Shown here: positions 1 through 9,076 of the stretch, in pieces
Numbering within the stretch: the stretch's first letter is position 1
Layout of the letters: each line of letters starts with the position of its first letter
NCBI GenBank assembly: GCA_029550865.1
Contig: JAKPGM010000026.1
Span: forward strand, 1 to 64,000
Direction: 5' to 3'
Length of the DNA stretch: 64,000 nucleotides
Source: Bacteroidota bacterium
Lineage (GTDB): Bacteria > Bacteroidota > Bacteroidia > Bacteroidales > DTGW01
The notes under the pieces: model-generated
What the model was told of the DNA's origin: nothing
Seen by the model: only the letters and a program-made list of their open reading frames with translations
Database searches by the model: none
Program-made: the position numbers and the translations under genes

Positions 1-30
1 CATAATATTAGTTTTTAAATTATTACAAAG

Positions 31-95
31 ATAATGCTGCCCTGCTACATTTCGCTCCGGCTACGCCTGCGCTTCATTTCGCAGGGCAGCATTAT
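31..95. repeat. Strong inverted repeat (hairpin), 15-bp perfect arms
   Basis: A perfect 15-bp inverted repeat lies at 31-45 and 81-95, with a GC-rich 35-base centre. The arms begin or end with ATAATGCTGCC. No T-run follows, so it is not a typical intrinsic terminator. It sits at the edge of the cassette-like segment and could be another boundary element or a transcript-end hairpin. Confidence 0.6.
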
Positions 96-484
96 ATGAT
101 TGCCTAATTATGAGTGTTTACACAATCTTTTTTATACTACCGTTTTTTACTAAAGGTTTCGATTTACTTGATAGTTATATGTCTTGTCTTAACCCAAACA
201 TATTGCTGTACAAAATTTAAAAAATTAATTTAGATGTAACTTGTTGCAGGTAGCAGCTTGCTCCCCGCCTGCATTACTACGGAAGAACAGGTTTGACCGG
301 CAGGGGGCTGATGTCGTGGCGCCACAATACCATCGGGTCGATCCGCGTACCAAAGCGCTTAAAAGGAAAACGAGAAATTTCCAGCGGTATTAAGCAGAAT
401 GTGAGTGGATTTGTTCTAAATTATTTTTTATAATCTATTTATCATTGTGCATTATGGTTACGTGTACGTTTTTAGCATTGCCTG
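96..484. other. Gene-free stretch with one coding-like patch
   Basis: No convincing complete gene is seen here. Bases 240-415 are more GC-rich than their surroundings. In the + frame they encode a stop-free stretch (255-433) containing GRTGLTGRGL, which resembles a segment of NUDT9-type ADP-ribose pyrophosphatases. A stop-free frame also exists on the opposite strand. It may be a gene remnant or coincidence. No start codon or ribosome-binding context supports expression. Confidence 0.25.
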
Positions 485-612
485 TAACTGTAGGCGGTAT
501 GAAATGTTGAGGAATTCGGAGTTGCGAACCTATCAACCGATAAGAACCTTGCCAGCGAGCGATGCGCTTGGCATAGTTCCAAAACCCCTATGAAGTATAT
601 ACTTTGTTGTGG
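485..612. repeat. Cassette-type intergenic repeat, copy A
   Basis: This is the most diverged member of a three-copy family of about 130 bp (A here, B at 1371-1505, C at 4179-4308). Shared features are GGCGGTAT near the left end, a central CCTATCAA, an AACCCCTAT-like right arm, and TTGTTG at the right end. It ends about 6 bases before the stop codon of the minus-strand gene that starts at 618, so it is immediately 3' of that gene. Confidence 0.6.
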
Positions 613-617
613 GAAGT

Positions 618-1325
618 TTATTTTTCAATAATTTTATATTTTTCAATCTTAAAGTAATATTTGTTATTTATTTTAAATAATTTGAAATTTCCAATTAAAT
701 CTCCGCCACTAGGACAACAATTTGCATCACCCTCATTCCATATTGGCGTTATAAAATTTAAATTCTCATTAAAATCCAAAATAGGTCCTTTCCAAACGCC
801 CTGACCTTTTTTCAAGACAGAGTTAAAAGGTTGTATTTCATATTCAATTTTATAACTTTTACCATCATCACTTGTTAATCTATAAATGTAATCCTCTGAT
901 AAATTACCTGTACCTGGAAATAATGCCCTAATTATAATAAACTGTTCAAAATCATTAGTATTAGCAATTCTGTATTTAAAATAAATGGGTAAATCAAAGA
1001 AATAAGGCTCATAGCTTACCTTTTTTAATTGATTCCTTAATATTATCTTATTTTCAATTTCATTATAGAAATTTATTTCTTCATACCCACGAACACCTTC
1101 GTGTGATCTATGATGAGTTATAATTATTTTACCTCCTTTAGAATAATCAGGATAAAATTCATTTAGATAGCATATCTTTAATGTATCTTGGTTCTCGGAA
1201 AGTCTAGTTATAACAATATCGTCCATTTTATATGTCGAATCAATAAATAATTTTTTGGGCTCCTGACAATAAATCTTAAATCCAAACAATGAAAGTATTA
1301 ATATTAGAATCTCTTTCCAAATCAT
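618..1325 (-). CDS. Hypothetical secreted or periplasmic protein (235 aa)
   Basis: I do not recognise the family. Residues 1-20 form a signal peptide (charged start, hydrophobic ILILILSLFGF, then YCQE). The Cys near residue 20 lies in KIYCQE, which is a weak lipobox. The rest is a soluble, aromatic- and Lys-rich domain typical of AT-rich Bacteroidota genes, with a Cys pair in the DANCCPSGGD stretch near residue 200. The gene stands alone between repeat A, just after its stop, and repeat B, just upstream. This single-gene cassette arrangement and its low GC suggest horizontal acquisition. The start at 1325 is the only ATG that includes the signal peptide. Confidence 0.7.
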   Translation of the reverse strand: MIWKEILILILSLFGFKIYCQEPKKLFIDSTYKMDDIVITRLSENQDTLKICYLNEFYPDYSKGGKIIITHHRSHEGVRGYEEINFYNEIENKIILRNQLKKVSYEPYFFDLPIYFKYRIANTNDFEQFIIIRALFPGTGNLSEDYIYRLTSDDGKSYKIEYEIQPFNSVLKKGQGVWKGPILDFNENLNFITPIWNEGDANCCPSGGDLIGNFKLFKINNKYYFKIEKYKIIEK

Positions 1326-1370
1326 TTTATATCACTTTTTTTACTTGTCAAGGCATTTTTTTAAATTGTC

Positions 1371-1505
1371 CACAACGATGGCGGTATAGCCAGTTAGGGA
1401 TTGCGGAGCGACGTTCCTATCAACCGAGACGAAAGATTGATGCGGGTAATGAACTTCGAATACCTCTGAAACCCTTATTGACTATACCGCTTGTTGGTTG
1501 CAGTG
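1371..1505. repeat. Cassette-type intergenic repeat, copy B
   Basis: Imperfect palindrome with arms at 1380-1399 (GGCGGTATAGCCAGTTAGGG) and 1472-1490 (CCCTTATTGACTATACCGC). It is flanked by CACAACG on the left and TTGTTGG on the right. The centre contains CCTATCAACC. It closely matches copy C and lies 5-10 bases beyond the stop codon of the minus-strand gene at 1510. The layout (outer CAAC/GTTG core-like ends, long imperfect stem, position 3' of a single gene) is like an integron attC site, but the exact GTTRRRY core is not matched. Confidence 0.75.
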
Positions 1506-1509
1506 TTTT

Positions 1510-4086
1510 TTATCTCTTTATGAATCTAAAAGACTCCCATTTCTCGTCATTCTTGACTCTAATAAGATAAATACCACTCTGAATATCAGACACATCAATT
1601 GAAGTATTTAAAACTCCTTGTTTAATTATAGTCCCCTGAATTGTATAAATTTGAAATTCATTTAAAGCTTTTGAATTTTTAAAGTACAAAGTATTTTCAA
1701 CAGGGTTTGGATAAATTAAATTTTTGTCTTCTATTAGTTTATTTATGTCTGTTGAAGCATTAGCAGAGTTTACAACATTAGATTTTGTTGAAGCATAAAT
1801 ATTCCCAGCTTTAGCGCTTTTTAAAAGTGGTTTGGCAACTTCAGGATTGCAAGCATCTTCAAGAACCATCTCTATTTGATAATACATATCCCCAACTGGA
1901 GCAGTATTATCAGTATACGAAATTAAATTACCTGCTATATCTGCTAAAAATGTCATATTATCTTTACTTGTACCCCTATACAATTTGTAAGTTGATATAG
2001 CAAGCCCTTCATAATGGGACCAAATAAGGTTCCATGCATTACCTGTTCCTTTATTAATAGTAAGATGAATAGTTTTATGCAAATCACTTAGTTCTGTTTC
2101 GTAACCGCTAAAATTTGTAATTGCCCCTATTTTATATCGATAAGCTTTCACAGAAGGGTCAGAAGCAACATCTTCAAATACAGATAATTCATTATATGCA
2201 ACGGTATCGAGTATTTCAAAAACATTAGCCTGATTAGTTTCTCTATAAATCTTGTATCCAGTAATAAAATCAACAGCTGGTTTTTCCCAAACTACAATAT
2301 TTTTTCCATTTTCAGAAACACTTACCATGCAAATTGAAGGAGGAGCAACATAAACCGAAAAATCTTTATTTTTAAGGTTCGAACAAGTCTGTTCATTATT
2401 TATCGAAATACTCATTGGTTCAAATGTAAACATATCAAATACTGGTTCAATTTTAAATGATGTTACTTCTGAAGGAGAGACTGGATATGATATTGGAAAT
2501 GAATATTTGCCTTCAGAATCAGTGACCAAATTAGAAACAATCAAACCTGTTTTTTCATTTACTATTTTTATAGAAATATCATTTGCAAATGACCCATCAG
2601 GAAATGTAATTTTACCTGTAACATTATCGGTAGCTTTTTTAGCATTATAATTTTCTTCTGTTAAATTTATACGATCAGCAATATAGCTGGATGGAATGTT
2701 GGTTTCAGAATAATCAAAGATATAACCCAATTTTGAAAAACTAAGATTCACATGCGCAGGGTCATAATAAGTTCCGTTATATACAAGCGTATCAATAATT
2801 GTATATTCGCCGGATGCGTTTGTAATATAAGTTTTCCCCCGACTTTCTATTGTTGCTCCTTCTAATGGTTCACCACAGGATAGAATAGAACCTCTAATAG
2901 AATAAACCACTTTTTCGGCAATCGTTCCGGTATAGGTAGCAACGAAATTTTGATTATCAAAATCTTTATCAACATCTAAAGTTATACTCTCAGGAGTAAA
3001 TGTGTAGTCAGACTTTGACGGGGTAATCGTATAAGTTGAGGCTTTAAGTCCTGTAAATGAATAATTTCCATTTGCGTCGGTACTTCCTATATGCATACCA
3101 AATACTGGGGAACTTAATGTAATACTAACTCCACTTATACCAGAATTGTCGTTTTTTTTAACACTACCCCCAATTGAGAAACCATTGCTACCGCCAGTTG
3201 AAGTGTATTGAAAATGAACTGTTTTTGTTACAGTTTTTCCATCAACTGTAAATGACAATTCACAGGTATTGTCTCCGCTCAAGAGTTCTCCTGTTAATGG
3301 CTGGTATGTTAAAATTTTATTATTATTTGTTAATACTGGAGTTCCTAAAATTGTATTTGAATTTATTTTCAGAGAATAATTTGTAATAGAAAGATTAGTG
3401 TTATTAGTTGCTACAATGGCTTGGATTTCAGGAAGATTTGTAGTCGAATAACTTTCATTGAATGCAGGTAACATATAAGTAATCATTGGATCGTCCACAG
3501 TAAGTTTTGAATTGTTGTACTGGCCACCATCGGTAACAGGGTTATATGGATCGGTGACCCAATTATCATCAACAACATACTTGTAAACATAATCCCCTGG
3601 CTCGAGTTCTTTTGTAATAGTGAATAAACCATTTCCTTGATTTGTAAGCTTATATTGAGGATCGGAAGGATTGTATGCATTCATGCTTCCTGCTAAAAAA
3701 ACATTAACCGGGCTTCCGGTTGCTTTATAGTAAAATGTAACTGGAATAGAAGTCGAATTGGCAGTGGATCCAACAAAATTACAATTAGTATAATCTTTTT
3801 CTACCAACCGTTCAATTAATGCCGGTGTAAAAGTATATCCAACCTTTTCGGCACGTATTGTCATCAATGTTCCAGATGGAACATTTGAAAAAGTGTAATT
3901 ACCAGATGCGTCGGTATATGTTTCGGCAACATATGGTGTTTCTGAATAAACTCTGGCATTTTCAATTCCAATTTGTGTTATACCATCCGGGCTGTAATAA
4001 ACTTTCCCAGAAACTGTATAAGGTTGAGCAATTAAAAATTTTATAATAAATAATTGCAGAATAAATGAAAGTAAAATTTTTTTCAT
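1510..4086 (-). CDS. T9SS-sorted multidomain secreted protein with carboxypeptidase-regulatory-like and CBM48-like domains
   Basis: Large secreted protein of 858 aa. A signal peptide (residues 1-20, ending LIAQPY) is followed by a carboxypeptidase-regulatory-like/Cna-B-type domain (about 22-108). Next is an AMPK/CBM48-like glycogen-binding fold (about 112-200) with the hallmark VNVFLAGSMN and YVYKYVVDD. Further regulatory-like beta domains lie around 300-385, 395-480 and 490-580, and fibronectin-type III-like modules at about 585-760. The last 80 residues are a type A T9SS sorting domain (LIYPNPVENTLYF ... GIYLIRV). It probably acts at the cell surface in binding polysaccharide, and no catalytic domain is evident. 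It sits alone between repeats B and C. Confidence 0.85.
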   Translation of the reverse strand: MKKILLSFILQLFIIKFLIAQPYTVSGKVYYSPDGITQIGIENARVYSETPYVAETYTDASGNYTFSNVPSGTLMTIRAEKVGYTFTPALIERLVEKDYTNCNFVGSTANSTSIPVTFYYKATGSPVNVFLAGSMNAYNPSDPQYKLTNQGNGLFTITKELEPGDYVYKYVVDDNWVTDPYNPVTDGGQYNNSKLTVDDPMITYMLPAFNESYSTTNLPEIQAIVATNNTNLSITNYSLKINSNTILGTPVLTNNNKILTYQPLTGELLSGDNTCELSFTVDGKTVTKTVHFQYTSTGGSNGFSIGGSVKKNDNSGISGVSITLSSPVFGMHIGSTDANGNYSFTGLKASTYTITPSKSDYTFTPESITLDVDKDFDNQNFVATYTGTIAEKVVYSIRGSILSCGEPLEGATIESRGKTYITNASGEYTIIDTLVYNGTYYDPAHVNLSFSKLGYIFDYSETNIPSSYIADRINLTEENYNAKKATDNVTGKITFPDGSFANDISIKIVNEKTGLIVSNLVTDSEGKYSFPISYPVSPSEVTSFKIEPVFDMFTFEPMSISINNEQTCSNLKNKDFSVYVAPPSICMVSVSENGKNIVVWEKPAVDFITGYKIYRETNQANVFEILDTVAYNELSVFEDVASDPSVKAYRYKIGAITNFSGYETELSDLHKTIHLTINKGTGNAWNLIWSHYEGLAISTYKLYRGTSKDNMTFLADIAGNLISYTDNTAPVGDMYYQIEMVLEDACNPEVAKPLLKSAKAGNIYASTKSNVVNSANASTDINKLIEDKNLIYPNPVENTLYFKNSKALNEFQIYTIQGTIIKQGVLNTSIDVSDIQSGIYLIRVKNDEKWESFRFIKR

Positions 4087-4178
4087 AATTTTTTGTTTTA
4101 TGTTTTTACGAAAGTATTAATTTTTTTTTAGAAAAAGTTGTATTAGATTTTTGAACCAAAAATTTTGCCTTAACATTG

Positions 4179-4308
4179 CAACCAGCGTTGGCGGTATGGC
4201 CAGTAAGGGATTGCGGGCGATTTCCTATCAAGCTACACGAAAAGTTGGAGCGGGCTACAACCCTTCGCATATCACTGTAACCCTTATGGCTATACCGCGT
4301 GTTGTGCT
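4179..4308. repeat. Cassette-type intergenic repeat, copy C
   Basis: Imperfect palindrome with arms GGCGGTATGGCCAGTAAGGG (4190-4209) and CCCTTATGGCTATACCGC (4281-4298). Outer GCAAC and GTTG ends and the central CCTATCAAG are shared with copy B. It lies 8 bases beyond the stop codon (4317-4319) of a short minus-strand reading frame, the same geometry as copies A and B. Confidence 0.75.
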
Positions 4309-4316
4309 TTCGTACA

Positions 4317-4900
4317 TTATTTTGTCTTTAAATTGTATAAACTATATTTACTATCAACGGTAACATTAAATCTTTTTTTTCCATCAGGTGTCTCCCAATA
4401 AATTTTCATCCGAATAAAATTATTTAATATGTTGAATATTAATTATTTAAACCATTCTTCCATTTCGTTGTATGGATAATATTCCCCATTTTATTCATTT
4501 CGTGTTTGTGCTTGAGCACAATCATGGAGGTTTCATCCGAAAATATTTTTAATTTTTTAAAGTGGCCGGATGGAACTCGCATGTAATATGTTTTGTGCTC
4601 TAAAATCAAGCAGGTATGAAAAATTATTTTCATCCTCGTTTGTGAAAACTGCTATACATGCTCGTTTCATAGCTTTAAAACGCATTAAAGTTCGAATATT
4701 ATTGCTATAAACTAAACAGTAGCCTGAAAAATGTCCATAAGCCAAAAATAGACGTATTTCTTTAAAATTTATCCACCATATTCTGGACATACCGAGTCAC
4801 CCTTTGTATAAAATCTCGGTCATAATCTACAATCAATACCGCAGCAACGAATTGCATCATATGTTTTACAATGAACATTGTTGTGTAGGTTATTATCTGA
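4317..4900 (-). pseudogene. Degenerate cassette region with broken minus-strand reading frames
   Basis: No intact gene is supported. Several short minus-strand frames follow one another out of phase. The frame from 4860 to 4762 (32 codons) contains VDYDRDFIQRV. The frame from 4790 to 4557 has 77 codons. The frame from 4633 to 4439 has 64 codons. A 30-codon frame from 4409 to 4317 starts MKIYWETPDGKKRF and ends next to repeat C. This pattern suggests one or two former genes broken by indels. I cannot name the families. The segment also holds copy 1 of the start-codon repeat (4534-4585). Confidence 0.4.
4534..4585 (-). repeat. Start-codon-associated 55-bp repeat, copy 1
   Basis: Read on the minus strand it begins ACATGCGAGTTCCATCCGGCC, continues with an A/T-rich spacer, and ends TTTTCGGATG. 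It is nearly identical to copies at 23684-23736 (minus) and 27752-27807 (plus). Here the terminal ATG opens only a four-codon frame, consistent with the decay of the surrounding region. Confidence 0.8.
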
Positions 4901-4901
4901 T

Positions 4902-5216
4902 TTAGGCAAATTTATGAATTGAAAATCCAAGTAGTCCACCTAAAATTGTTGTCATTATAGCAATTGGTATCAGAGAAACAGGCTCTTTCCAACCAATCAA
5001 AATTACAGTTGGTAATAAAACTAAAAATGAGATTATTATTCCTTTCATTATCGAATTAATTTTCAAATCAATTGTGGATATAAAAAATCCGACCACAATC
5101 CACATAGTAAATGCTGATATATTCGCATCCCATGTCAATTTTTGAATTATCATCGGAATCACGTCAATTATTCCGGCAATAATTCCTGACAACAAACCAA
5201 TTTTAATTTTTTTCAT
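4902..5216 (-). CDS. Small integral membrane protein (104 aa), unknown function
   Basis: The protein is almost entirely hydrophobic. A short charged start (MKKIKIG) is followed by about four membrane segments, roughly residues 6-24, 33-52, 57-76 and 80-100, with a Trp- and Glu-containing loop (GWKEP) before the last one. It has no signal peptide cleavage site and no catalytic motif. The gene is isolated on the minus strand in the AT-rich cassette-like segment, flanked by decayed sequence downstream and by a possible repeat remnant upstream. The ATG at 5216 is the only start that includes the first segment. Confidence 0.65.
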   Translation of the reverse strand: MKKIKIGLLSGIIAGIIDVIPMIIQKLTWDANISAFTMWIVVGFFISTIDLKINSIMKGIIISFLVLLPTVILIGWKEPVSLIPIAIMTTILGGLLGFSIHKFA

Positions 5217-5383
5217 AATCTTATCTTACTTGGTAGAATATCTGTTTTAGTTGCTGTACAACACTGAGTGATGCATCGTGAGGGAGTACGTAGCCACTTC
5301 AGTAACCACCGTTACTAAGCTTGCAATTAAGATGAACCGCTATATTTTATGACCATATGTTAGGTGGCGTTTTATTTATGCTA
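5217..5383. other. Intergenic spacer, possible diverged cassette repeat
   Basis: The spacer contains GTACAAC near 5260 and GTTAGGT near 5360. The latter fits the integron core consensus GTTRRRY. It falls between two single minus-strand genes, just beyond the stop of the upstream one, as the other repeats do. Its interior does not align well with copies A-C by eye, so membership is uncertain. Confidence 0.3.
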
Positions 5384-6055
5384 TTACCATATCTTAGGAA
5401 TTAATCGTTGTCTTGTTTTTTGTATGTAATCAGCATACCCTGTTAGTTCTTTTTTTAAGGCTTCATCCTCAAGATAAGTTCTTATTATCAACAAAATTAT
5501 AGCTATAATAATAGGTATTGTACTCCAAATAGAACCTGTTAATAAAGGAAAAGCAGCCAATGAAATTATCATCCCTAAATACCCAGGATGTCGCACAAAT
5601 TTATAAATACCTGTATCGCAAACGGTTTGTCCTCTATCCTTTTGAATTCGTACGACACTTGAAAAATATTTGTTTTCTTTTCTTGCAGTAAGAAAAATCA
5701 TTTGCCCAATTATCATTAGTACAACTCCAATAAGATAAATACTCCAATGAAAGTCAGGCGACCATTTATAACGTCCTGAGTCAAGACCAGCAATTACAAC
5801 ACTTATCAAATATATCACTCCCGATAATGCTAAAATTAACTTATCCCATGATTTTGAATCTTTATCAACTTTTGACCGTTCAGTCATTAATTCTATATCT
5901 TTTCTAATTGTCCAAAAATTCATAAGTGCAGTAATAAGGTTGGCAAATAAGAAAACATACCCTTGAACATAGTCTATTCTCCCTGCAGTAATAAATATTA
6001 TTACAGGAAAAATCAATGATGTGGTTATTGTTTTAATAAAATATTTTGTTTTCAT
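5384..6055 (-). CDS. Isoprenylcysteine carboxyl methyltransferase-family membrane methyltransferase
   Basis: A 223-aa polytopic membrane protein of the ICMT/phospholipid-methyltransferase superfamily. There are about five membrane segments. The family signature is at residues 143-165: GIYKFVRHPGYLGM, where the RHPxY motif takes part in binding S-adenosylmethionine. The C-terminal catalytic element LEDEALKKELTGYADYIQ follows a membrane hairpin. In this family the ExxL...YxxY region contributes to the active site. The natural substrate of bacterial members is usually unknown and may be a lipid or small molecule. It is a single minus-strand gene at the right end of the cassette-like segment. Confidence 0.8.
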   Translation of the reverse strand: MKTKYFIKTITTSLIFPVIIFITAGRIDYVQGYVFLFANLITALMNFWTIRKDIELMTERSKVDKDSKSWDKLILALSGVIYLISVVIAGLDSGRYKWSPDFHWSIYLIGVVLMIIGQMIFLTARKENKYFSSVVRIQKDRGQTVCDTGIYKFVRHPGYLGMIISLAAFPLLTGSIWSTIPIIIAIILLIIRTYLEDEALKKELTGYADYIQKTRQRLIPKIW

Positions 6056-6551
6056 AATTTCATTTCAATTAGTCAATAATAGTTTAATGGTTTAACACCC
6101 TATTTCCGGGACATTAAAAAAAAAGATAAGGACAAATTCCTTGTCATTTTGTTAAGCAAAGATAGTCATGCTGGCGAATTTGTCAAGAGTAAAACAAGCG
6201 GTAATAAGTTTTATACGCAAAAATCAATATGCAGAACCAAAACATCAATACACTGGCGGTTAAACCTGCCTTCCACTACGAGCTATCGGACACATGCGAT
6301 AAATTAGCCTAACTGCATAAAATTAAGTTGTTAATTTTGTCGTGTAATTATGGGTTACAGGTACCTATCCTCTTTCCAATTGGATTGTCAGAAGGGAGAT
6401 ATCATCTTTCCAATCGAGTAAACTGCTTAAAACAAAAATCTTTCAAACACAAGGGTTCGACAAAAAATTTGCCCCAATACATAGAAAAATAAAAATCTTT
6501 CACAATTTTTGGGGCAAAATTGTGTTTGATAGTTCGGGTAAATAAAAAGTC
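6056..6551. promoter_or_regulatory. Long intergenic leader upstream of the TonB receptor operon
   Basis: About 500 bases without an intact gene. Contents: a 9-bp inverted repeat GACAAATTC (6131-6139) / GAATTTGTC (6176-6184); a 27-codon coding-like fragment (6229-6312, start MQNQNINTLAVKPAF); a candidate -7 box TAATTTTG (6332-6339) without a clear -33 box; direct repeats TCTTTCCAAT (6371-6380 and 6405-6414); and the palindromic structure described separately at 6434-6528. It marks the boundary between accessory and ordinary sequence. Confidence 0.45.
6434..6528 (+). promoter_or_regulatory. Palindromic leader with two competing hairpins
   Basis: Two alternative pairings are visible. The local one is CACAATTTT (6501-6509) with AAAATTGTG (6516-6524), a 9-bp stem with a 6-base loop. 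The long-range one pairs CAAACACAA (6444-6452) and TTTGCCCCAA (6468-6477) with TTGTGTTTG (6520-6528) and TTGGGGCAAA (6509-6518). AAAAATCTTTC occurs twice (6434 and 6491). The region ends 23 bases before the receptor start codon. It could be a regulatory RNA structure or a protein operator. Confidence 0.5.
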
Positions 6552-8999
6552 ATGAGGATTAAAAATATAGTTATTCTTTTATTAGTACTGTTGACCGATG
6601 GAATGCTTTTGAATGGGCAACAAACGGGAGTATTCTATGGGATAGTGTCGGACACATCGGGTTATTCGGTTGGTTTTGCCACTTTGGCCATTCCCAACAC
6701 GAAATATGGTGCTATTGCCGATCGTTCGGGACGGTACGAGATTAAACTCCCTGCAGGAAAATATACGATAATGGTAAGTTGTGTAGGATATAGGACACTT
6801 CAAATAACCGATAGTGTGTCACCTGGACAAAGGAAACAACTGGATATTGTACTCACAGAGTCGATAGAAAATGTAGAAGAAATAAAAGTAACAGGGCGTG
6901 CCGATAACATTGGTGGTATTCAGCGAGTGAGTATAAAATCACTGCAGGCCATGCCTAATGCAAGCGGGAATATCGAAGGCATAATCAAACGGCTACCTGG
7001 TGTAGCTTCCAACAATGAGCTTAGCTCGCAATATTCGGTGCGAGGGGGAAGCTTCGACGAAAATATTATCTATGTCAATAACATCGAAATCTACAGGCCT
7101 GTCCTTATCCGTAGTGGGCAGCAGGAGGGACTTAGTTTTGTAAATCCCGATCTGGTTGGTTCATTAAAATTTTCGGCTGGTGGATTCGACGTAAGCTACG
7201 GCGATAAAATGTCGTCGGTACTTGATGTAACCTATAAACGCCCCGAAGACAATGCAGGCTCGGCTACAGTTAGCTTTCTCGGTGCCAACCTTCACTACGA
7301 AGGTGTATCCGATAACCAACGTTTTCGACATCTTACGGGCATACGATATAAAACTACCCAGTACCTGCTTTCGGGGCTTGACGCTAAAGGCGAGTATCGA
7401 CCTACTTTCCTCGATGCACAAACCTATCTTACATACAACCTGACGCCACACTGGGAAATCGATTTTCTGGGGTATGTTGCGCAAAACAACTATACTTTCG
7501 TTCCTACCACCCGCGAAGTCGAATTTGGCACCTTTCAACTCCCCTTAAGAGCCCAAATATTTTATGAGGGTCAGGAAGTCGACCGATACCTCAATACTCT
7601 GGGGGCTGTTACAATCCTATTCAGACCAGGCGATAAATCATGGTACAAACTCATTGGTACTGCATACGCAAACAACGAATCCGAAACCTTCGACCTGCTG
7701 GGCGAATATAACATTGGTCAAATTGATTACAACAACCGCGATAGCGTAGAAAAAATAGGTGTTGGTGGTTTTCTTAATCATGCCCGTAATTTTCTCAATA
7801 GCTATGCTTATAGTCTACAATTCATTGGCCAGAATAGCTTTGCCGATAATCGCATACGCTATGGCATTACCTGGCAAACCGAAAAAATCGATGACCGACT
7901 GAAAGAATGGGAAATCATCGACTCTGCAGGGTACCTGTTCCCTTACAACGCAGATGTTATCCAACCACTTGCTCTTCGAAATGCACAAAACCAGATCGAA
8001 TTCTACCGACTGATGGGATACCTTCTGTACAGCAGAACATTTGTGCTGGGTGACGAAAAGTTTACACTCAATGCAGGGATTCGAAGTCATTATTGGTCGT
8101 ACAATGGGCAAAATATCATTAATCCCCGCACCTCGCTTTCGTATCAACCCTCCTGGAAAAAAGGATTATTACTTTATGGAGCTGTCGGCTACTATCAACA
8201 ACCTCCTACCTATAAGGAAATGCGCTATCCTTCCGGCGAGGTCAATAAAAATATCAAAGCCCAAAAAGCCGTAAATTATTTGCTAGGGGTTGACTATTTG
8301 TTTTACAGCTGGTCGCATCCCTTTAAACTCACAGTAGAAGCTTATTATAAAAAACTCGATAACTTAATTCCTTACCGTATCGAAAACGTCCGTGCTATCT
8401 ATGCTGGTGAAAACCTTTCGAAAGGCTATGCCCGTGGCATCGACATTAAGCTCAATGGCGAATTTATCAAGGGAACCGAGTCGTGGTTCAGCCTTTCCCT
8501 CCTCGACACCAAAGAGGATATTCCCAACGATGCTTATACCCTACCCTCACGTCCCGACTCACTAATTTATCCTGGTTATTTCTCCCGTCCCACCGATCAA
8601 CTACTCAATCTTAACATATTCTTTCAGGATTACCTGCCCCGATATCCTTCCTATAAAGTATATCTCAGTATACATTACGGAAGTGCGCTACCGGTTACCT
8701 TCCCCTTTTCGAATCGTTGGGACGATGTACAGAAACTTTTACCTTCCTACAAACGGGTCGACCTGGGCATTTCTAAAATTTTAAAATCGGCAAATGAAAC
8801 AGCCAGCTGGAGTATCCTAAACCATTTCAACGAAGTTTGGTTGAGTGCCGAAATTTTTAATGTTATCGGAGCCAACAATACCGCCTCCTACATGTGGATA
8901 AAAACGTTTGCACAGCAAGAAGGTATACCCGGCACCTTTGCCGTACCCAACTACCTTACCCCTCGAAGGCTGAATTTGAAATTAGTGGTTACTTTTTGA
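6552..8999 (+). CDS. TonB-dependent receptor with carboxypeptidase-regulatory-like N-terminal domain
   Basis: Outer-membrane active transporter of 815 aa. A signal peptide (about 1-22, ending LNGQQ) is followed by a CarboxypepD_reg-like domain at about 28-112. The plug domain at about 118-230 contains GIIKRLPGVASNNELSSQYSVRGGSFDENIIYVN. The remainder is a TonB-dependent beta-barrel with many alternating aromatic strands, ending in an aromatic residue (KLVVTF). It is shorter than SusC proteins and has no SusD partner, so it is a general TonB receptor for a metal chelate or small ligand that I cannot name. The three genes that follow on the same strand probably form one unit with it. Confidence 0.9.
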   Translation: MRIKNIVILLLVLLTDGMLLNGQQTGVFYGIVSDTSGYSVGFATLAIPNTKYGAIADRSGRYEIKLPAGKYTIMVSCVGYRTLQITDSVSPGQRKQLDIVLTESIENVEEIKVTGRADNIGGIQRVSIKSLQAMPNASGNIEGIIKRLPGVASNNELSSQYSVRGGSFDENIIYVNNIEIYRPVLIRSGQQEGLSFVNPDLVGSLKFSAGGFDVSYGDKMSSVLDVTYKRPEDNAGSATVSFLGANLHYEGVSDNQRFRHLTGIRYKTTQYLLSGLDAKGEYRPTFLDAQTYLTYNLTPHWEIDFLGYVAQNNYTFVPTTREVEFGTFQLPLRAQIFYEGQEVDRYLNTLGAVTILFRPGDKSWYKLIGTAYANNESETFDLLGEYNIGQIDYNNRDSVEKIGVGGFLNHARNFLNSYAYSLQFIGQNSFADNRIRYGITWQTEKIDDRLKEWEIIDSAGYLFPYNADVIQPLALRNAQNQIEFYRLMGYLLYSRTFVLGDEKFTLNAGIRSHYWSYNGQNIINPRTSLSYQPSWKKGLLLYGAVGYYQQPPTYKEMRYPSGEVNKNIKAQKAVNYLLGVDYLFYSWSHPFKLTVEAYYKKLDNLIPYRIENVRAIYAGENLSKGYARGIDIKLNGEFIKGTESWFSLSLLDTKEDIPNDAYTLPSRPDSLIYPGYFSRPTDQLLNLNIFFQDYLPRYPSYKVYLSIHYGSALPVTFPFSNRWDDVQKLLPSYKRVDLGISKILKSANETASWSILNHFNEVWLSAEIFNVIGANNTASYMWIKTFAQQEGIPGTFAVPNYLTPRRLNLKLVVTF

Positions 9000-9076
9000 G
9001 AAAATCATGGCGATACAAACCTAAAACTTTTTGAAATATTATTTGTTTAAAAAAAAGCCTTCAAAAACATACATCA

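Follow-up and report, generated by a model that had tools for sequence, protein, structure and literature searches.

What are the three palindromic repeats that lie at one end of a Bacteroidota contig, each directly behind a gene? The window analysed here comprises bases 1–64,000 of contig JAKPGM010000026.1, which is contig C10 of the draft genome G000 (2.5 Mb, 79 contigs, 84% complete; G, C and L numbers denote genomes, contigs and loci). Its minus strand carries the repeats, termed A, B and C, which an earlier, sequence-only reading had attributed to an integron-type or analogous cassette array. A clade of tyrosine recombinases, linked to such repeats in both position and orientation, supports that attribution. 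We put the probability at roughly 90% that A–C are attC-like cassette recombination sites of an integron-type Bacteroidota system, served by this recombinase clade and exchanged at a GTT/AAC core.

The description of A–C as related palindromic repeats holds over their full length. Their mutual alignment runs from end to end on the minus strand, with GGCGGTAT, CCTATCAA, AACCC and TTG invariant, and each begins 5–10 nt past a minus-strand stop codon, that of gene 618–1325 for A, of gene 1510–4086 for B and of the short frame ending at 4317 for C, in agreement with the original placement of the repeat ends beside the stops of leftward genes (Table 1). The long imperfect stems noted for B and C are confirmed, with complete outer stems in both. 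Site A looks chimeric, because its left and right stem arms are mismatched. Arms of two types, found both in A (483–613) and at L061 (18373–18503), suggest that, besides exchange at GTT, the conserved body undergoes homologous exchange. Folding of single sites gives A–C only a modest gain over shuffled sequences (z -1.3 to -2.4), and the evidence is therefore carried by comparison with relatives.

Searching with B alone, blastn found homologous copies in 13 relatives among 60 genomes, a few of the short matches being weak. In gene orientation, these copies begin with CTAACAA or CCAACA and end with CCGTTG or CCGTTA, and they conserve both a length of about 130 nt and a structure. An alignment of 14 copies revealed an outer stem of 20 pairs, 13 of which show compensatory changes: an imperfect, attC-like stem in which structure is conserved above sequence, with conserved internal sequence also present. 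A covariance model built from these 14 copies (R1), of the kind that the sequence-only reading had proposed to seed with A–C, detected sites in 39 of the 60 relatives, with a maximum of 24 per genome, and in 97 of 247 genomes sampled evenly across the phylum (~39%). As A–C are among the seeds, their own R1 scores are high by construction; the blastn result is free of that circularity. A second covariance model (R2) was also used. R1 gave zero matches on the non-Bacteroidota recombinase loci among L073–L152, as did R2 on its non-Bacteroidota source loci. The R box reads GTTR in 185 of 188 sites and GTTRRRY in only 10 of 188, in line with the suspicion that the repeats form a distinct class.

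In an integron cassette circle, the two ends meet at the core, and once the cassette is inserted they fall in two neighbouring sites. We compared the 14 nt from the GTT of one site (n-1) with the 14 nt leading to the AAC of the next (n), using the two flanks of a single site as the control. Across a first set of 75 units, an average of 6.96 of the 11 positions scored were complementary, whereas the flanks of single sites averaged 3.86 and random pairs 3.44. A second set of 65 units, mostly from later-chosen loci, gave 8.37 of 11 against 3.74 and 3.75, respectively (p = 3e-35, uncorrected for relatedness), and 47 of the 65 units scored at least 8, compared with 2.8% expected by chance. Apart from a fixed A.C mismatch at position 11, pairing continues through position 14, beyond which it drops to chance level. 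Within the window, unit B–A scores 8/11 and unit C–B 10/11; the latter was counted by hand, the script having taken a neighbouring GTT and returned a score of 1 (the core of C reads GCT). Complementary cassette ends combined with non-complementary site flanks fit circles joined at GTT/AAC, and suggest that cassettes pass through circular intermediates.

Breaks in homology fall at the same position. Contigs G028:C3 and G019:C5, from different families, share 93% identity over 1,525 bp and are near-identical in the last 800, and the match stops exactly at ...CCAACCGTT, beyond which the two are unrelated. On the other side, shared cassettes start at GTT or a few bases off. One site type is 90–100% identical on seven plasmids, which continue into seven different sequences from GTT onward. 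The cassette boundary is the GTT, and the site body goes with the upstream gene, as in integrons. The sequence-only reading would have been undermined by a lack of linked gene presence or absence; instead, near-identity between loci of different families gives way at GTT to different genes. Three families (L160, L154 and L163) also share, at 82–90% identity, a short cassette segment that opens with GTTGGCAACAAGTG.

The sites often occur in arrays. In same-strand arrays of up to ~12 cassettes (G033, G004, G027, G019, G006 and others), each site lies a few bases past the stop of a same-strand gene. In a 200-site set with a median spacing between sites of 976 nt, a same-strand open reading frame (ORF) stopped within -30 to +40 nt of the 5' end of 147 sites, compared with 19 of 200 in a mirror control. 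R2 revealed dense arrays in Algibacter onchidii (L109; 10 sites in ~9 kb), Flavobacterium enshiense (L099; 10 sites), Seonamhaeicola aphaedonensis (L086) and Winogradskyella ursingii (L087). The arrangement is thus that of an integron: tandem, co-oriented, single-gene cassettes, each with a 3' site.

A candidate enzyme is linked to these arrays. A strong IntI-like match lies ~1 kb from a site in G006:C7, and others end within a few hundred bases of where their contig stops, which is what an unassembled array further on would produce. In an alignment of 13 of these proteins (A5), the catalytic R, K, H, R, H and Y are invariant, and the clade has both the R-K-H-R-H/W-Y catalytic set and the Phage_integrase domain that define the tyrosine recombinase superfamily. 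When named genomes were scanned with A5 and then R1, all 30 sites detected lay downstream of a recombinase on the same strand, in Bacteroidota only. In the 247-genome sample, 54 genomes had both recombinase and site, 25 the recombinase only, 43 a site only and 125 neither (odds ratio 6.3, p = 1.7e-10, uncorrected for relatedness). Among the sites listed within 100 kb of a recombinase, 46 of 47 point away from it, 36 of them lying downstream on its own strand and 10 upstream on the other. The first cassette's best start box falls 27–349 nt past the recombinase stop in 10 of 18 loci; a TATA-rich motif that ends ...ACKA|GTT (consensus by eye) usually precedes it, and we regard this as a candidate attI. 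An integrase gene with an adjacent attI-like site thus appears to head the array, in genomes other than that of the window. Several genomes (G028, with L043 and L045; G011; and others) encode two or more clade recombinases, some of which appear to be disrupted by several in-frame stops.

Many clade members have an N-terminal extension, for which a predicted model (mean pLDDT, the predicted local distance difference test score, 75.7; A5 / L053 2939–4609) has beta-alpha-beta repeats; in one member, this region gives a sub-threshold Pfam match to HARP. The HARP-like extension may help to recognize the folded site. Four clade members score 215–220 bits on TIGR02249, under the cut-off of 265, compared with 368 bits for an IntI control. 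The interval from the K patch to HxLR is 60–66 aa in the clade (where the pattern was found), ~67–72 in most Xer proteins and 104–106 in IntI. An additional domain near patch III is defining for IntI (PMC9668308), and the short interval indicates that the clade lacks it, a second feature consistent with the distinct class suspected at the outset. In a quick tree of 86 proteins, the three groups each formed a branch of their own, with support of 89 for the array-linked proteins, 100 for IntI and 99 for Xer. By the tests available, the recombinase is not an IntI: the system appears to work like an integron yet fails IntI membership. The clade also scores 199–225 bits on the XerA model NF040815 ('site-specific tyrosine recombinase/integron integrase'; cut-off 220), and some relatives are annotated xerA, or named xerD or tpnF in the literature. 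XerA proper resolves chromosome dimers at dif. Many clade members differ from it in their HARP-like extension and in their placement at the head of a cassette array.

Likeness to integrons extends beyond the tandem, same-strand layout. Shared features include exchange at GTT, a candidate attI beside the integrase gene, the frequency of integrase-less arrays resembling clusters of attC sites lacking an integrase (CALINs), and diverse cargo consisting mostly of unknown genes; the long site with an imperfect, structure-conserved stem recalls the sedentary chromosomal integrons, such as the VCRs (Vibrio cholerae repeats). The Bacteroidota system differs, however, in a recombinase that branches apart without the IntI-specific domain and is mostly co-oriented with the array (36/46), the divergent layout of classical integrons accounting for 10/46. 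It also differs in an R box of GTTR without RRY, in the conserved internal sequence of the site, and in an outer box whose complementarity spans 14 nt, with an A.C mismatch at a fixed position, where integrons have a 7-bp core.

These features suggest a mechanism in which the clade recombinase recognizes the folded site and recombines it with either another cassette site or the attI-like site next to the recombinase gene, strands being exchanged at the conserved GTT/AAC core. A cassette would consist of one gene, sometimes several, and its 3' site. On excision, the cassette ends would meet and complete a 14-bp outer stem with the fixed A.C mismatch; on insertion, that stem would become split between neighbouring sites. 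We infer catalysis by the linked recombinase, a folded single-stranded substrate, the strand used and present-day activity from these sequence patterns.

Could the arrays instead be an ordinary IntI integron, or a decayed CALIN remnant of one, with drifted attC sites? The array logic, the attC-like stem and the CTAACAA...CGTTR ends are the same, the top fold match in the Protein Data Bank (PDB) is the integron integrase VchIntIA, narrowly ahead of archaeal XerA, and one of the 60 relatives does have an IntI over the TIGR02249 cut-off. Nearly all other matches fall below that cut-off, however, and one true IntI stands against sites in 39 of the same 60 genomes; together with the sub-threshold scores of the array-linked proteins, the missing insertion, the separate branch and the rarity of GTTRRRY, this makes drifted IntI sites very improbable. 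In the relative with the true IntI (L048, G011:C50; same order, 368 bits), that gene occurs alongside clade recombinases and sites.

An insertion-sequence-like origin, in which a gene bounded by terminal inverted repeats moves as, for example, IS91-type elements do and the conserved body is mere spacer, would account for the 14-nt complementary cassette ends, and IS91 transposases do lie near the sites, with integrases, on some plasmids. Yet the body moves with the upstream gene, homology running through it to GTT, and its covarying stem runs on into the ends, while the arrays are tied to a tyrosine recombinase and not to a transposase. We rate this origin slightly lower than drifted IntI sites. 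Lower still, and scarcely credible, is the idea of transcription terminators, or RNA elements of another kind, that lie behind genes and spread with them by ordinary recombination. Conserved stems directly 3' of genes are what one would expect of terminators; complementarity between the start and end of a cassette, absent between the flanks of one site, is not, nor are sharp ends of homology at GTT or the outward orientation of 46 of 47 sites relative to one recombinase clade. Rfam, searched across the window at gathering scores, returned only a tRNA and no family for the repeats.

Several observations count against A–C being cassette sites of a clade recombinase. The sequence-only reading had held that it would be refuted were there no recombinase in related genomes; one is linked there, but none of the clade was found in G000, where the best match is a Xer protein (195.6 bits), an absence that is not proof because the genome is 84% complete and the array lies at a contig end. 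More broadly, a clade recombinase above the threshold used is missing from 43 of the 97 genomes with sites, that of the window among them, and at E<=1e-6 no site was detected in 25 of the 79 genomes with a recombinase. These unpaired genomes may reflect draft assemblies, CALIN-like remnants or the derivation of the model from Bacteroidales-like copies. In 8 of 18 loci, attI could not be placed because the first site detected lies too far off; both p-values ignore relatedness among genomes, and recombination is deduced from sequence patterns, not from directly observed events.

The cargo is varied. The 119 cassette proteins include few repeated families, with matches to prokaryotic Argonaute (pAgo), SIR2, AriA, restriction-modification, other defence models and beta-lactamase-family proteins. 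The tigecycline-resistance gene tet(X) also appears to have been a cassette of the system. On the Sphingobacterium faecium plasmid pWB8, tet(X2) is flanked by two sites of the family (E 2e-12 and 4e-9); read by hand, its start box is complementary to its end box save at the usual position. On Acinetobacter plasmids, tet(X3) begins 189 nt after, and on the same strand as, the gene for TpnF, which shares 70.6% identity over 238 aa with a clade recombinase and reads as a shortened member of the clade. The G of GTTATGTGCCATTT is the exact point at which homology between the tet(X3) locus and the Sphingobacterium tet(X2) begins. No intact site was detected by the model behind the Acinetobacter tet(X3), where only the left part of one can be made out by eye. 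Likewise, blaOXA-347 lies between two co-oriented sites on a Myroides albus plasmid (NZ_CP102755, L209 1146–2338) and looks like a cassette too. Sites also adjoin estT, floR and a dihydrofolate-reductase-like gene on other plasmids.

The tpnF-tet(X3)-hp-hp-ISCR2 context of Acinetobacter plasmids has been described (PMC7722449), as has xerD-tet(X) adjacency (PMC7473080, PMC11194056); in the sections of these three papers that we read, one asks whether XerD mobilizes tet(X), and an integron mechanism is not proposed. Those contexts share with our system a TpnF akin to the clade, with tet(X3) downstream on the same strand; our reading differs in putting the junction at GTT and tet(X2) between two cassette sites.

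We consider it likely, with less confidence than for the identity of A–C, that these arrays represent a phylum-wide integron class: a separate, non-IntI lineage with its own site grammar (the split 14-nt box and its fixed mismatch) that IntI-requiring methods would miss, and the platform on which resistance genes such as tet(X) and blaOXA-347 were put together before passing to other phyla. Integrons are held to be rare in Bacteroidota, and IntegronFinder 2.0 reported a single complete integron in Bacteroidetes proper (PMC9024848). If our reading is right, integron-type sites occur in ~39% of the sampled genomes and were missed because tools seek IntI and its attC. We found no published description of this cassette system in a search that did not extend to preprints or subscription journals. 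Such a system would be a second route to recombining structured cassette sites, achieved without the IntI-specific domain, so that the need for that domain becomes testable. It would also provide a mechanism for the long-noted presence of xerD/tpnF beside tet(X), a last-resort resistance gene, and a way to search Bacteroidota of gut, marine and sewage habitats for further resistance and phage-defence genes carried in cassettes.

Table 1. Features of the cassette array in the window, and the tet(X) loci compared with it.
Feature	Position	Strand	Basis
Site A, attC-like, 3' of gene 618–1325, chimeric arms	483..613	-	R1 84.4 bits (training sequence), E 1e-18; R2 68.8 bits
Cassette 2 end box AAACTTCCCACAAC, 14 nt, AAC last	606..619	-	8/11 scored positions complementary to start box 1363–1376
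Cassette 2 gene, 235 aa, no Pfam match	618..1325	-	ORF and Pfam search
Cassette 2 start box GTTGTGGACAATTT, 3' end of site B	1363..1376	-	Sequence reading and box scoring
Site B, attC-like, outer stem complete	1371..1500	-	R1 126.4 bits (training sequence), R2 109.6 bits; blastn relatives
Cassette 1 end box ACACTGCAACCAAC	1493..1506	-	10/11 scored positions (hand count) against start box 4173–4186; usual mismatch at position 11
Cassette 1 gene, 858 aa	1510..4086	-	Carboxypeptidase-regulatory-like repeats, AMPK1_CBM, C-terminal secretion sorting domain
Cassette 1 start box GCTGGTTGCAATGT, 3' end of site C, core GCT not GTT	4173..4186	-	Sequence reading
Site C, attC-like, outer stem complete	4181..4308	-	R1 113.4 bits (training sequence), R2 98.8 bits
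Short frame, 30 aa from first ATG, stop 4317, 8 nt before site C	4317..4409	-	Direct reading
tet(X) loci	L197 8052–10150 (NZ_CP041297), L201 3873–5333 (NZ_CP123862)		Sites around tet(X2); TpnF and tet(X3) segment joined at GTT

The window thus appears to contain two cassettes and part of a third at the end of a contig. Base 1 is the contig start, so no assembled sequence lies further left, and we interpret the locus as the end of a cassette array whose integrase would be either unassembled or absent (CALIN-like). A blastn search of C against G000 returned only B and chance matches, no convincing start box for the cassette ending in C was found within 6 kb, and a filters-off model search of window positions 1–9000 gave no further significant site, only weak opposite-strand echoes of B and C. 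The short frame before site C is probably a remnant of the cassette gene that owns this site. The 235-aa product of cassette 2 appears to begin with a hydrophobic, signal-like stretch.

Two minor features lie nearby. A weak site-like stretch on the minus strand (5253–5383; 12 bits at 5257–5366), just past the stop of gene 5384–6055, is possibly a decayed site. Near the contig start (31–95), a 31-bp inverted repeat with a 3-nt loop (ATAATGCTGCCCTGC..., 77% complementary) looks like a separate palindromic element.

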